Of a stretch of DNA of 34,099 nt, positions 4,871-12,437 are shown one piece after another. The notes under the pieces are model-generated. The model saw only the letters and a program-made list of their open reading frames with translations. It was not told where the DNA came from and made no database searches. Positions within the stretch are counted from its first letter, which is position 1; the number at the start of each line of letters is the position of its first letter. The translations under genes were made by a program, and so were the position numbers. Source of the stretch: Nitrososphaerales archaeon (GTDB lineage: Archaea; Thermoproteota; Nitrososphaeria; Nitrososphaerales; Gagatemarchaeaceae); contig JASHPA010000071.1 in assembly GCA_030038365.1 (NCBI GenBank), positions 1 to 34,099 on the forward strand, written 5' to 3'.

Positions 4871-5956
4871 TTGATCAAGCTCCCGCGCAAGGTCATCATA
4901 GCGATGGCGGTGGCACTGGTGATACTCGTGGGGGCCAACTTCTATCTTGACTACAGCACGGTGAGCAGTACCGGGCCATGGGTCTCGACGACCGCCTATC
5001 CCCTGCAGACCGGAGGAGTTGCCGGGGTGCTGGGACAGTCGTGCGTGGCTTCGTCGGGCACCGTCTATTGCATCGGGGGTGAGGACGCCAACAGCGCGCC
5101 CCATGACTCCGTCTACTACGCGCCCATCTCGTCCTCCGGCATAGGCAACTGGACGCTCGACCAATACTCCTACCCGAAGAACGTCATGTTCACCTCCTGC
5201 CTCGCGAGCTCCGGATACGTGTACTGTGTAGGAGGGACGGATGAGGCCACAGGGAACGACACGACATCGACATACTTCGCCCCCGTCCTTAGCGATGGCC
5301 TAGGGAACTGGACGGCCACATCGCCGTATCCGATAGCCGTGGACAGCGAGTCGTGCGTCCCTGCCTCTGGATACGTCTTCTGCATGGGTGGGGAGAACGA
5401 GACCTCCGGGCTCAGTTCCTCCGCTACGGATACCGCTTCCGTCTGGTACGCGACGCTCTCCTCGTCTGGTATCGGGACGTGGTCACGGACCACGGCGTAC
5501 CCATCGGGGACCTTTTTCCCTGACTGCGTAGGATTGGGAGGATACATCTATTGCGTCGGGGGCGAAGACCTGTCGAGCGACGTTCTCTCCTCCGCATACT
5601 TCGCGTCGGTGTCTCCGGAGGGTCTGGGGCCGTGGACGGCCACCAGCTCCTACCCGATACAGGACACGGCCCAGTCATGCTCCGTGGCTGGGACAGTCAT
5701 CTACTGTGTCGGAGGCCTCACCACGGGCGGGAACCCCGCCAACGAGGTCTACTATGCTGGGCTCACGCCCTCGGGCATAGGTGGCTGGCAAACGGGCGGA
5801 AGCTACCCTCAGTCACTCTCCACCAGCTGTGTGTCCTCCTCCACCTACGTCTACTGCGTGGGGGGATACGTCCCCGGCTCAGGACCCGTTGCTGACTGCT
5901 ATTTCGTGCCCGTGGAATCCAGCTCTATCTCGAGTTCCACTTCAGGTTCAGGCTGA
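4871..5956 (+). CDS. Exported/membrane-anchored kelch-like beta-propeller protein
   Basis: 361 aa; N-terminal hydrophobic segment (KVIIAMAVALVILVGANFYL), then six repeats carrying SC...(V/I)(Y/F)C(V/I/M)GG; Ser-rich C-terminus. TTG start. Confidence 0.75.
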   Translation: MIKLPRKVIIAMAVALVILVGANFYLDYSTVSSTGPWVSTTAYPLQTGGVAGVLGQSCVASSGTVYCIGGEDANSAPHDSVYYAPISSSGIGNWTLDQYSYPKNVMFTSCLASSGYVYCVGGTDEATGNDTTSTYFAPVLSDGLGNWTATSPYPIAVDSESCVPASGYVFCMGGENETSGLSSSATDTASVWYATLSSSGIGTWSRTTAYPSGTFFPDCVGLGGYIYCVGGEDLSSDVLSSAYFASVSPEGLGPWTATSSYPIQDTAQSCSVAGTVIYCVGGLTTGGNPANEVYYAGLTPSGIGGWQTGGSYPQSLSTSCVSSSTYVYCVGGYVPGSGPVADCYFVPVESSSISSSTSGSG

Positions 5957-7663: not shown

Positions 7664-7674
7664 TCTTTATATCG
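7664..7674 (+). promoter_or_regulatory. TATA box (box A) for the oxidase operon
   Basis: CTTTATATCG centred about 33 nt upstream of the coxB ATG (7702), consistent with a leaderless archaeal transcript. Confidence 0.55.
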
Positions 7675-7701: not shown

Positions 7702-8739
7702 ATGTTAGCGCTCGTGCAGTACGTAGAAGCTCCGACGACGCTGATTTGGTGGACGCTTCTGAAGTACTATCTGTTCCTCGGGTTTGCAGCGGGAACCATC
7801 GTCACCGTATGGATGCTCTATAACATTACCAGGTACAGGGAAAGGAAAAACGTCAAGGAGGCTCCAAACTACCATCACGAGGAGGAGAGCGGCTGGGGCA
7901 ACTGGAAGTCTGTGGTCCTGACTCTCATGGTCACAGGTTCAGTGCTTGCGTTCGTCGAGTACGAGACTTTCGCCTCTACTGGTCTCATCGTGCCTCCGAA
8001 CACAACCGGAGACCCAGTCTACATCAACGTGACAGGACAGCAGTTCATCTGGACGTTCACGTACCCTAATGGGGCGGTGTCAGGTGGGCCAAACGGTAGT
8101 CTCGTCGTCCCCGTCAATACCATTGTGATACTTAACATAACCTCTATCGACGTCGATCATTCGTTCTCTATAGATTCTCTGAACGTTGCCAAAGACGCAC
8201 TGCCGGGTGTGCACAACTTCCTGTGGTTCAATGCGACGCAGGTGGGTTTCTTCAAGGACGACATACGCTGCAAGGAGCTCTGCGGCGTCGGACATTGGGA
8301 CATGATAGACAATCTGAACGTGACCACCATGGCTGGCTACGAGCAGTTCTTGGCCGCCAACGGTCCGAGTACCAACACTGGGACTGCATCGACCAGCGTA
8401 AGCACGGCTCCGAATACGGTCACTGTTATCATGCCCCAGGGCGTCGGGAGTGATCAGAGCCTGAACTTCCAGCCCTCTTCGATCCATGTTACGATTGGAG
8501 TCAATAACACGATCACCTTCAAGGACCAGGACAACACTGCTCCCCACAATGTGTGGTTTACGAGCGTCCCCTCGGGAGCTGCCAACCCCAACTCCGCTGC
8601 CGGACAGACGTCCTTCTACCAGCTTACCAATGGTGACAGCGTCACCTACACATTGACGACGCCCGGCACATATGACTTTGAATGCCAGTTCCACAGCACC
8701 TGGATGCAAGGTACGATAACCGTAACGGGAAGCGGGTGA
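7702..8739 (+). CDS. coxB: Heme-copper oxidase subunit II (CuA) with fused C-terminal blue-copper (cupredoxin) domain
   Basis: Two N-terminal TMs; CuA motif CKELCGVGHWDM and upstream His in DVDHSFSI; then a second cupredoxin domain with type-1 Cu ligands in NTAPHNVWF...YDFECQFHSTWMQGTITV. Confidence 0.9.
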   Translation: MLALVQYVEAPTTLIWWTLLKYYLFLGFAAGTIVTVWMLYNITRYRERKNVKEAPNYHHEEESGWGNWKSVVLTLMVTGSVLAFVEYETFASTGLIVPPNTTGDPVYINVTGQQFIWTFTYPNGAVSGGPNGSLVVPVNTIVILNITSIDVDHSFSIDSLNVAKDALPGVHNFLWFNATQVGFFKDDIRCKELCGVGHWDMIDNLNVTTMAGYEQFLAANGPSTNTGTASTSVSTAPNTVTVIMPQGVGSDQSLNFQPSSIHVTIGVNNTITFKDQDNTAPHNVWFTSVPSGAANPNSAAGQTSFYQLTNGDSVTYTLTTPGTYDFECQFHSTWMQGTITVTGSG

Positions 8740-8745
8740 TAACAA

Positions 8746-11121
8746 GTGGACCCTTGGCTTAAGCGCTGGCTCTTCTCGACGAATCACAAGGACATAGGCA
8801 TACTCTACTTCTGTAGCGCCCTCTACTTCGGGTTCATAGGCGCACTTCTTGCCGTCTTCATGAGGGTGCAGCTCTCAGTCCCCCTGAACGACTTCCTAGG
8901 TGCCAGCGCGTACGACCAGGCGGTCACCCTCCATGGCCTGATCATGATTCTCTGGTTCCTCTCACCGCTTGCGATTGCCTTCATGAACTACATCATGCCT
9001 CTGCAGATAGGCGCGAAAGATATGGCCATGCCAAGGCTCAATGCCTTCGGTTACTGGCTCTTCGTCTTCGGCGGAATCACCGCGACGCTTGGCTTCTTCC
9101 TGCCAGGAGGCAACGCTCAGGGAGGCTGGACGACCTATGTCCCTCTCTCCACCACCTACACTCCAGGACCTGGACCAACACTCGCCTTCCTCGGACTGAT
9201 CATGCTGGTCGTCTCCATAACCATCGGCAGCGTCAATATCCTGCTCACGATCGCGTACATGCGCGCACCGGGCATCACCTGGAGGAAGGTGCCCATGTTC
9301 ACCTGGTTCGTCCTCTTCACGATACTGCAGATGCTCTTTTCGTTCCCCTCTCTGCTCGGAGGTCTTCTAATGCTTGTCTCGGACAGAGTCCTAGGCACCG
9401 TCATCTTCTCTCTGCCGGTCTCGCAGGGGGTTGCCGCAGGAGGAGCAATACTCTGGGACGACATATTCTGGTTCTTCGGCCACCCTGAGGTCTACGTCGT
9501 GCTCTTGCCTGGTTTCGGCATGATCACGGAGATACTCCCGGTCTTCTCCGGGCGCCCGCTCGCCGAGAGAAACATCATCCTTGCCGTGACCGGTGCGGTT
9601 GTCGTGCCGCTCAGCTACCTCGTGTGGGAGCACCACATGTTCATCACCGGAGTGAGTCTCACAGAGGATGAGGCGTTTAGCGTCGCTACGCTGCTCATCT
9701 CTCTGCCTTTCGACGTCATCATACTTGCGTTCGTCAAATCCCTAGGAAGAGCGACCATCAAGCTCTCGGTGCCGATGCTATTCGCGATAGGCTCGATCAT
9801 CCTCTTCATCATAGGAGGGATCACTGGTGTCTTCCTCTCGTCATTCGTCCTGGACGTTGTGTTCAGAGGCACATACTTCGTCGTAGCGCACTTCCATTAC
9901 GTGATGGTCGGTGCCGCGATCTTCGCGCTCTTCGGAGGGATCTACTACTATCTGCCAAAGATGACGGGCAGGATGTGGAACGAACCGGTGGCTATGGCCC
10001 ACTTCATCATCTCGTTCATCGGGTTCAACATTCTCTACTTCCCGATGTTCTTCCTGTATGAGATGCCTAGGCGCATCTACACCTATCAGTCTATTCCTCT
10101 CTGGAACGAGATGAACTTCATTGCCACGATAGGTGCCTACATCTTTGCAGGAGCGCAGGTACTGCTCGTCATTAACCTGGTCTACACAGTCAGGAGCGGA
10201 AAGATCTCGCCACCCAACCCGTGGGGCGCGACGGGGCTCGAATGGACTCCGAACATTATGGGTGCCTCCAGCGCGCCCTCGTTGCCAGCGACAGGAGGGC
10301 ACGATGACACGTCGCACGGAGAGCATGGGGGAGGTTATGGCGGCCACGAGGAGCACTACAGCGAGCGGCCCATCCAGCTCGCCGGCGGCCTGATGGTCAC
10401 GCTGTTTGGACTTAGTCTGCTAACGACCTTCCAGCGCTCATCCGTGCTGATAATGCTGGCTGGTTTCGTCCTGATAGCCTATGCACTGATACAGTGGGGC
10501 GCGGACGACACCAAGGACAGGTTCAAGTTCGACGAGGGCGTCACCGAGAAGTGGCCGTTCGTGAATATCCCGAAGCTTCGGCTAGGGATGTGGGTGTTCA
10601 TCTCTTCGGACATCATCGTCTTCGGCGCTATCCTGGCATCTGACATCTACCTTAGGGTCAACTCGCCGGTGGCGTGGCCACTCCCAGGAACGATCCACGA
10701 CATAACTCTCGGGCTGGTTGCCACGATAATTCTGCTGACGAGCGGCCTGACAGCGGTCCTGGCGCTGGAGTCGGCGAAAGAGGGCAAGACCAGGTCTCTG
10801 ATTAACTACCTCTGGGCGACCTTCGCGCTGGGTGCCGCGTTCATCCTCTTGCACGTCTACGAGTGGTATGGATACTTCACGAAAGCCAACCCGTTCGTCC
10901 CGTGGGGTGGCACGCTTCCGGAGAGCACCTATTTCTTCACGGTAGGGCTCCACGCCGCGCACGTCTCGACAGGCTTGGGGGTCATGATATACCTCATCAA
11001 CAAGGCGAGGAAGGGAGGGTTCTCCAAGGGCAACATCACCGGAGTCGAGAACTTTGCGATCTACTGGGCTTTCGTCGACCTGGTCTGGGTGTTCGTCTTC
11101 CCGCTCTTCTATCTCATATAG
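8746..11121 (+). CDS. coxA: Heme-copper oxidase subunit I/III fusion
   Basis: 791 aa; subunit I motifs (WLFSTNHKDIGILYF, WFFGHPEVYVVLLPGFGMI, HHMFITG, GTYFVVAHFHYVM), then a His/Gly-rich linker and a subunit III module (LGMWVFISSDIIVFGAIL...STYFFTVGLHAAHVSTGLGVMIYLI...YWAFVDLVWVFVFPLFYLI). GTG start. Confidence 0.93.
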   Translation: MDPWLKRWLFSTNHKDIGILYFCSALYFGFIGALLAVFMRVQLSVPLNDFLGASAYDQAVTLHGLIMILWFLSPLAIAFMNYIMPLQIGAKDMAMPRLNAFGYWLFVFGGITATLGFFLPGGNAQGGWTTYVPLSTTYTPGPGPTLAFLGLIMLVVSITIGSVNILLTIAYMRAPGITWRKVPMFTWFVLFTILQMLFSFPSLLGGLLMLVSDRVLGTVIFSLPVSQGVAAGGAILWDDIFWFFGHPEVYVVLLPGFGMITEILPVFSGRPLAERNIILAVTGAVVVPLSYLVWEHHMFITGVSLTEDEAFSVATLLISLPFDVIILAFVKSLGRATIKLSVPMLFAIGSIILFIIGGITGVFLSSFVLDVVFRGTYFVVAHFHYVMVGAAIFALFGGIYYYLPKMTGRMWNEPVAMAHFIISFIGFNILYFPMFFLYEMPRRIYTYQSIPLWNEMNFIATIGAYIFAGAQVLLVINLVYTVRSGKISPPNPWGATGLEWTPNIMGASSAPSLPATGGHDDTSHGEHGGGYGGHEEHYSERPIQLAGGLMVTLFGLSLLTTFQRSSVLIMLAGFVLIAYALIQWGADDTKDRFKFDEGVTEKWPFVNIPKLRLGMWVFISSDIIVFGAILASDIYLRVNSPVAWPLPGTIHDITLGLVATIILLTSGLTAVLALESAKEGKTRSLINYLWATFALGAAFILLHVYEWYGYFTKANPFVPWGGTLPESTYFFTVGLHAAHVSTGLGVMIYLINKARKGGFSKGNITGVENFAIYWAFVDLVWVFVFPLFYLI

Positions 11122-11129
11122 GTGTGACG

Positions 11130-11396
11130 ATGAAACTAGTTACTACCGTGGGCGTCTGGCTGTACATGGTGGCCGCGGCCGTGCTAGAGGTCTTCGTCTC
11201 GAAGGCGGACCCAGGCAACATCAACGCAGACATCGTGATCGGGCTCGTAGCGTCGGCGAGCGCCGTGATTACCGCCCTCTTCTCAATGAACATCCGCTCG
11301 GAGACGACTGCAGTCAAGTATCTCTTCCTGATACCGGTCCTCCTTGTCGCCGTTCTGATCATCACACTCGTCCTGTCGTTCCCGGTGATATCCTAG
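11130..11396 (+). CDS. Small three-TM protein, candidate oxidase subunit IV-like
   Basis: MKLVTTVGVWLYMVAAAVLEVFVSKADPGNINADIVIGLVASASAVITALFSMNIRSETTAVKYLFLIPVLLVAVLIITLVLSFPVIS; lies directly after the I/III gene. Confidence 0.6.
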   Translation: MKLVTTVGVWLYMVAAAVLEVFVSKADPGNINADIVIGLVASASAVITALFSMNIRSETTAVKYLFLIPVLLVAVLIITLVLSFPVIS

Positions 11397-11397
11397 A

Positions 11398-11904
11398 ATG
11401 AAATTGTCGGAAGAACACGGACACGACCCCAAGATGGGCGGCGGCGCCAAGGCCGCGGTTGGTATCGTGGTGATCGTCGCGATAGTTATCCCGATACTGC
11501 TCGGTTATGTGCTTGTGCATGGCAGCCTTCTCCCGGTGAGCCAAAACACCGGAACGGGCACCGCGACAGGCACCGGGACGTCTTCGACCCCGACCGTAAT
11601 CATGCCGCAGGGCGTCGGGAACGACCAGAGCCTGAACTTCCAGCCATCCACGATTCGTCTCGTGATCGGTACCAACAACACGATCGAGTTTATGGACGAG
11701 GATAACACCGCACCTCACAACGTATGGTTCACCAGCATCCCGTCGGGCGCGACCAATCCCAACACAGCCGCGTCGCAGGCCTCGTTCTACCAGCTGCACC
11801 AGGGCGACAGCGTGACATACACGCTGACCGTCCCAGGCACCTATGACTTTGAATGCCAGTTCCACAGCACCTGGATGCAGGGCACCATAACCGTGACTAG
11901 CTAA
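11398..11904 (+). CDS. Membrane-anchored cupredoxin (plastocyanin-like)
   Basis: 168 aa with N-terminal TM; NTAPHNVWF...YDFECQFHSTWMQGTITV carries the His-Cys-His-Met ligand set; nearly the same as the C-terminal domain of the subunit II gene. Confidence 0.88.
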   Translation: MKLSEEHGHDPKMGGGAKAAVGIVVIVAIVIPILLGYVLVHGSLLPVSQNTGTGTATGTGTSSTPTVIMPQGVGNDQSLNFQPSTIRLVIGTNNTIEFMDEDNTAPHNVWFTSIPSGATNPNTAASQASFYQLHQGDSVTYTLTVPGTYDFECQFHSTWMQGTITVTS

Positions 11905-11939: not shown

Positions 11940-12437
11940 GTGTTGAGGAGAACGGCAAGCCGGCGTTTTATGCCCCTGCTCTTCGTCAGGGCGGCTGACG
12001 GGACGGTCAAACCCAAAAAAAGGAGCAGGACGTTGTCGATCTCCAGCATCATCATCCTCGCCCTGGCTGCAGTTGCGGCGGTGGCTTACTACGTAGGCAC
12101 CCCACCCACGCCTCCGTCGGTGGAGGCGACCCAATACCCGTGCGCCGCTGGAGACCCCCAGATTGTCATCCCGCAAGCCGTTGGTACGGCGTTCCTAGTT
12201 CCGAAGTTGACGGTCGTCGTCGGTGTCAACAACACCGTCGGCTGGGACGACCAGGACACCACATACACGCACGTCGTATCCTCCGAGTCGGTGCCTCCAG
12301 GCAGCGACTACTGGGACTTTAACATGACGGCCGGCCAAAGCGACTGCGTGAAACTTACCGTCCCGGGCAGCTATGGCTACGAGATCGGCTTCTCTCCCAT
12401 CACCTACTTCGGACAGATCACCGTCAAGGCGTCGTAG
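11940..12437 (+). CDS. Membrane-anchored cupredoxin-fold protein lacking most type-1 Cu ligands
   Basis: QIVIPQAVGTAFLVPKLTVVVGVNNTVGWDDQDTTYTHVVSSESVPPGS...VPGSYGYEIGFSPITYFGQITV aligns with the two upstream cupredoxins but the Cys/His/Met region is changed. Confidence 0.75.
   Translation: MLRRTASRRFMPLLFVRAADGTVKPKKRSRTLSISSIIILALAAVAAVAYYVGTPPTPPSVEATQYPCAAGDPQIVIPQAVGTAFLVPKLTVVVGVNNTVGWDDQDTTYTHVVSSESVPPGSDYWDFNMTAGQSDCVKLTVPGSYGYEIGFSPITYFGQITVKAS

Follow-up and report, generated by a model that had tools for sequence, protein, structure and literature searches.

How electrons are fed into complex IV in archaea without cytochrome c has largely been inferred, especially for the abundant soil ammonia oxidisers. 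The locus analysed here raises the question of whether such an oxidase can carry its own electron donor. It lies on a 34,099-nt stretch of DNA (hereafter the window) from an uncultured soil archaeon of the Gagatemarchaeaceae (Thaumarchaeota I.1c), in which a gene for oxidase subunit II continues past its CuA domain into a type-1 (T1) cupredoxin domain. Our preferred reading, to which we give a probability of roughly 0.68, is that the tethered T1 domain acts as a permanently attached electron donor to CuA, a copper counterpart of the caa3 arrangement, and that this module and a separate cupredoxin encoded nearby are kept alike. An oxidase carrying its own copper donor names that donor and fixes its stoichiometry, and a fused CoxB makes T1 Cu to CuA transfer measurable inside one polypeptide.

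Subunit II and its tethered copper domain

The fused coxB gene occupies 7702..8739 of the forward strand, with its ATG at 7702 and its stop codon at 8737-8739, and encodes a protein of 345 aa. An earlier note on this DNA had described a 345-aa protein whose CuA motif precedes a Thr/Ser linker and then a T1 cupredoxin domain with all its ligands, and the exact coordinates, Pfam matches and ligands confirmed this description. Two transmembrane helices (residues ~11-48 and ~68-92; 7732..7977), predicted from hydrophobicity and a low-confidence AlphaFold2 model, precede a COX2 (CuA) domain at residues 133-201 (8098..8304; PF00116, E 1.2e-12, 48.2 bits against a curated cut-off of 22). The ligands of the CuA motif CKELCGVGHWDM (8269-8304) are invariant in the orthologues, and the ligand set is complete (H153, C190, E192, C194, H198 and M201). 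The protein scored 121.4 bits with the TIGR02866 CoxB model, under the cut-off of 147.7. It nonetheless has the features expected of CoxB, namely a COX2 domain with CuA ligands, two N-terminal helices (in the low-confidence model) and a neighbouring subunit I gene. We rejected assignment to a quinol oxidase subunit II (CyoA/QoxA) because the CuA ligands are intact and the QOXA and CyoA scores fell far under their cut-offs.

A Thr/Ser-rich linker (residues ~218-238; 8353..8415), evident in the translation and differing in sequence among the aligned fused orthologues, leads into the tethered T1 cupredoxin domain (8416..8730; ligands H282, C328, H331 and M335). Both Cupredoxin_1 (PF13473, E 2.4e-12, residues 236-341) and Copper-bind (PF00127, E 4.9e-12) matched the domain over their curated cut-offs, and phmmer alignments placed its His, Cys, His and Met in register with the plastocyanin ligands of 1b3i and 7pcy. 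The domain thus combines a cupredoxin fold with the T1 ligands in their proper order, and the four fused orthologues of the genus share all 10 CuA and T1 ligand residues without exception. An isolated model of the domain was of modest confidence (pLDDT 68); a Foldseek search with this model gave a best E of 2e-3 and no match at E 0.001, and its first PDB matches include auracyanin, plastocyanin, amicyanin and a Nitrosopumilus cupredoxin. Neither the tethered domain nor the separate anchored cupredoxin described below had a Pfam match to SoxE (sulfocyanin) at E 0.1. A whole-chain AlphaFold2 model built from ten aligned sequences (pLDDT 50, pTM 0.30) was too poor for a Cu-Cu distance.

Several smaller features of the gene were recorded. 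At residue 115 (8044-8046), where cytochrome c oxidases have their electron-entry Trp, the window protein and two fused relatives have Phe and the fourth has Trp. Loss of this Trp was rejected as a mark of the fusion because one fused relative and the Nitrososphaeraceae fusions (see below) have Trp and some unfused proteins have Phe or Tyr. A possible archaeal TATA box read from the sequence (TTTATAT, 7666..7672, forward strand) lies 36 nt upstream of the ATG, and if it serves as one a near-leaderless coxB mRNA is possible. An Rfam scan of the window returned zero matches.

The oxidase operon and its distribution in the family

The operon is read from the forward strand in the order coxB-cupredoxin, coxAC, coxD, anchored cupredoxin and a ligand-less cupredoxin-like protein. 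coxAC (8746..11121; GTG start, 791 aa) begins 7 bases past the coxB stop and encodes fused subunits I and III (PF00115, E 2.4e-122; PF00510, E 1e-18), and coxD (11130..11396) encodes an 88-aa subunit IV (PF03626 COX4_pro, E 2.7e-7, over cut-off). A separate membrane-anchored T1 cupredoxin of 168 aa, identified from its reading frame and Pfam matches, follows at 11398..11904. Behind its N-terminal anchor, this protein shares 83% identity with the tethered domain across about 101 residues, and at the DNA level the two cupredoxin domains form a 300-nt direct repeat (11593..11892, 77% identical to 8422-8721). The last gene (11940..12437) encodes a cupredoxin-like protein that lacks the T1 Cys, His and Met ligands, as judged from the locus and the domain tree; such a protein ends the operon in all four genomes with a fused CoxB (L038, L039 and L040 in addition to the window), and these proteins form their own clade (97/97) in the cupredoxin tree. 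It keeps two cysteines, which might form a disulfide.

Other loci in the host and its relatives are of note. The host has a second coxB-coxAC operon with an unfused CoxB (L041, contig C97) whose core is 54% identical to that of the fused protein. Anchored proteins with two cupredoxin domains each, located elsewhere in the host and in G006, are 72-79% (L050, 7701-8681) and 66-74% (L051, 6383-7327) identical to the tethered domain and are possible further partners in copying. Upstream of the window operon lies a gene for a membrane-anchored Kelch-repeat protein (4871-5956), and a similar gene is found upstream of coxB in G006 (L038). In that genome, coxAC, coxD and the free cupredoxin are absent between the coxB-cupredoxin and the ligand-less cupredoxin (L038, 4459-5982), and a CoxA was not found elsewhere in the assembly; recombination between the two copies of the cupredoxin repeat, with loss of these genes, or assembly collapse would account for this gap.

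We searched 46 genomes of the Gagatemarchaeaceae with a profile of the fused protein. Both domains matched only in four members of the host's genus, namely the host itself (G000), G001, G002 and G006, which places the fusion in 4 of the 7 CoxB-bearing genomes of that genus; the same search detected no fusion in other genera of the family and found no CoxB in G003. Unfused CoxB proteins are encoded by G004, G005, G007 and members of other genera. The in-frame fusions in the three other genus genomes, which show that the gene is neither a chance reading frame nor an assembly chimera, correspond to the named records FK2.bin78, Ca. Gagatemarchaeum stordalenia and AcS1-27. When named genomes were queried with the single protein no match was obtained, but a query with the fused alignment did match, and the relatives that it retrieved, Ca. 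Gagatemarchaeum stordalenia among them, belong to Thaumarchaeota group I.1c. Among plasmid records, 236 had a CoxB match, 0 of these covered 80% of the query, and no fusion of this kind was seen among them. Taken together, the fusion searches covered one archaeal phylum, which was sampled, and the plasmid records.

At the loci that we read, a separate cupredoxin gene, encoding one, two or three copper domains, lies downstream in most unfused operons of the family. Because a cupredoxin adjoins the oxidase in unfused relatives too, the copper donor and the oxidase appear to have been associated before any fusion. The separate cupredoxin is still present in the operon with a fused CoxB in G000, G001 and G002. 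Cytochrome b was found in all seven genus genomes G000-G006 and PF00034 cytochrome c in none of them, a lack that is provisional because the genomes are incomplete metagenome assemblies. In the genus, PF00034 matched once, close to the end of a contig in G007 (L131, contig 113, 23-265); this match is possibly contamination or a real exception. A crude motif scan of G000, G001 and G006 revealed no cupredoxin adjoining cytochrome b (complex III).

Origin of the fusions and likeness of the two cupredoxins

Trees of the two parts of the fused protein gave different histories. The four fused genes of the genus formed one clade in the CoxB-core tree with moderate support (73/82), which requires one change, and the cores of G000 and G006 were sisters (100/99). 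In the cupredoxin-domain tree, the fused domain paired with the free domain of its own operon in G001 (98/92), in G002 (98/96) and in the window (85/81), and the fused domains of G000 and G006 fell in different subgroups despite their sister cores. A tree constrained to keep the four fused domains together was 124 log units worse (p-AU 5e-56), and a topology holding the G000 and G006 domains together was also rejected (p 0.011). Because the cores form one clade and the domains pair with their own-genome partners, the likeness of the tethered and anchored domains would imply concerted evolution or repeated copying. A single fusion, then repeated copying between the two genes, seems to explain this pattern best.

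A search of the phylum identified a CuA-T1 fusion outside the Gagatemarchaeaceae, in G337, which belongs to a family (f8) that we took from its content to be the Nitrososphaeraceae, a group of ammonia-oxidising archaea. When the operons of this family were read, CoxB was fused in 19 of 24 and unfused in 5. The Nitrososphaeraceae CoxB is a shorter form that starts with a single membrane helix; Pfam found both domains in the four fusions examined, and the T1 ligands were matched in 17 of the 19, the remaining two being unscored by the pattern used. In a tree rooted with outgroups, the fused CoxB proteins formed one group (89/93), consistent with one gain, and this fusion arose independently of that in the Gagatemarchaeaceae. 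The earlier note had proposed a search for this architecture among archaeal CoxB proteins; the architecture is present as described, but it is not confined to this gene, as it occurs in three further genomes of the genus and in the Nitrososphaeraceae.

Monophyly of the tethered domains is likewise rejected in the Nitrososphaeraceae (p-AU 3.5e-5), where many of them group, with strong support, with the anchored partner from the same genome. Identity within a genome reaches 98% in G499 and 92-95% in G519, G475, G511 and G503. In a permutation test with one genome per genus, the mean identity of own pairs was 80% versus 59% with shuffled partners, and 2 of 20,000 permutations reached 80%. Homogenisation does not extend to every genus, as the tethered and anchored copies of genus g14 have diverged (55-70% identical). 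Each of the five unfused operons encodes an anchored protein with two T1 domains, whereas in 14 of the 17 fused operons with a readable partner this protein carries a single T1 domain; as the genomes are related, the count is no formal test. The exceptions are G519 and G475, with two T1 domains, and G517, with a longer protein and one motif.

New in these data are an independent CuA-T1 fusion that is widespread in the Nitrososphaeraceae; the finding, common to both lineages, that the CoxB cores are monophyletic and the tethered domains are not, with several of the latter pairing with their own anchored cupredoxin (at up to 98% identity); and the difference in the number of T1 domains on the Nitrososphaeraceae anchored protein with the fusion state of CoxB. 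The likeness of tethered and anchored domains within genomes presents concerted evolution in unusually clean form, acting across two different genes of a single respiratory complex. In each of the two lineages, fused members and their close unfused relatives provide natural pairs for testing the benefit of tethering.

The pairing of fused domains with the free domain of their own genome would also be expected if there had been several fusions, each to a local cupredoxin gene, rather than one with later homogenisation, and the support for the fused CoxB clade of the genus is just 73/82. We regard repeated fusion as the less probable course, though one that deserves some weight, because the CoxB cores require one change per lineage, and because G000 and G006 have sister cores with domains from different subgroups, which an old shared fusion followed by replacement explains directly. 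It is scarcely credible that the fusion is an assembly artefact produced between two similar cupredoxin copies. These copies do constitute a 300-nt direct repeat, and the stretch between them is missing in G006, but in-frame fusions occur in four separate genus assemblies and at 19 Nitrososphaeraceae loci, several of them on single-contig genomes, and although collapsing the repeat could remove coxAC, it could not give rise to a fused copy.

Proposed electron route and known systems

We propose that the product of the gene is subunit II of an A1-type heme-copper oxidase, with a plastocyanin-like T1 domain attached to the CuA domain by a flexible linker. Electrons leaving complex III (cytochrome b) would pass to a blue copper site, either on the free or anchored cupredoxin and then on the tethered domain, or on the tethered domain directly. 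From the tethered T1 site they would move to CuA and on to the hemes of CoxAC, with either the anchored cupredoxin or complex III recharging the tethered domain. The two cupredoxins may be interchangeable modules kept alike by gene conversion or repeated copying, and their sameness within genomes would fit a shared docking site and potential. We infer copper occupancy of both sites, the order of electron flow and selection for sameness.

The covalently tethered donor suggested by the earlier note remains the best reading, given that PF00034 was not found in G000-G006, that the ligand sets are conserved and that a related free donor is present; the separate donor has, however, not been replaced. 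With this separate donor still encoded in the operon, we give equal weight to a purely internal relay and to a two-step relay or common use of one docking site, and the tethered domain may be supplementary and not the donor itself.

The strongest alternative takes up this last point: the anchored or free cupredoxin would still be the main and true donor, docking on CuA, and the tethered domain would be redundant or regulatory (for example, an electron buffer) with little role in turnover. The free donor is indeed kept in the operons of G000, G001 and G002, and several members of the genus, as well as the second oxidase of the host (L041), are without a tethered domain. We nevertheless consider this alternative unlikely, because the T1 ligands do not vary among the four orthologues of the genus and were matched in 17 of 19 Nitrososphaeraceae fusions, and because the Nitrososphaeraceae anchored protein has one T1 domain fewer in most genomes with a fused CoxB, which fits replacement and not redundancy. 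The domain could instead load copper into CuA or sense copper without carrying electrons. Dedicated proteins are generally needed for copper delivery to CuA, and this domain adjoins CuA in the chain, but its His, Cys, His and Met are the electron-transfer T1 set and align with those of plastocyanin, Pfam gave no Sco-type or PCuAC-type match, and the anchored protein nearly identical to the domain is an ordinary blue copper protein; we therefore think a copper-loading or sensing role very improbable.

Beyond the tethered donor itself, we tentatively suggest a more general and rather less assured idea, in which some thaumarchaeal complex IV enzymes might run on interchangeable T1 modules, one bound to CuA and one anchored in the membrane, that have repeatedly been made alike by recombination. 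Separate and tethered donors of the same oxidase would have been swapped twice independently, and the number of copper domains in an operon would tend to be conserved.

The earlier note would have yielded to evidence that this architecture had already been characterised, and we found no published description of a CuA-T1 subunit II in the text of open-access papers. The caa3 oxidases of Thermus and Bacillus have a subunit II with a C-terminal cytochrome c donor domain after CuA. Subunit II of the window operon also carries a putative donor domain C-terminal to CuA, and its CoxB core has a PDB match in 2yev_B, a subunit II of 337 aa. The two differ in that the donor domain here is a T1 cupredoxin, and the 345 aa include no CxxCH heme motif.

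Complex IV of the Gagatemarchaeaceae has been described as encoded by coxAC, coxB and coxD and as belonging to the A1 subfamily with D and K channels (PMC10640624). This is the same family and the same set of genes as in the window operon, and the main text of that paper has no mention of plastocyanin, cupredoxin or blue copper. Passages of a survey of archaeal gene fusions report NirK-plastocyanin fusions in Halobacteria and Thaumarchaeota, along with split forms, and a fusion of subunits I and III; its complex IV passages contain no CoxB-cupredoxin fusion (PMC11237513). The NirK proteins described there resemble the fused CoxB as a recurrent archaeal fusion of a copper enzyme with a plastocyanin-like domain, although the enzyme is a different one.

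Blue copper proteins are established donors to archaeal oxidases, with halocyanin and sulfocyanin as the known cases, and in the SoxM supercomplex of Sulfolobus sulfocyanin mediates between a bc1-like complex and the terminal oxidase (PMC3062577). Sulfocyanin differs from the tethered domain in being a separate protein of another cupredoxin family, and no window protein scanned with Pfam matches SoxE. In haloarchaeal ba3 oxidases, halocyanin is fused to subunit IIa (CbaD) (PMC3128077), and these enzymes thus share with the fused CoxB a blue copper donor covalently joined to an oxidase subunit. Their oxidase is of the B type and carries halocyanin on its small transmembrane subunit IIa, whereas the putative donor described here lies C-terminal to CuA within one open reading frame.
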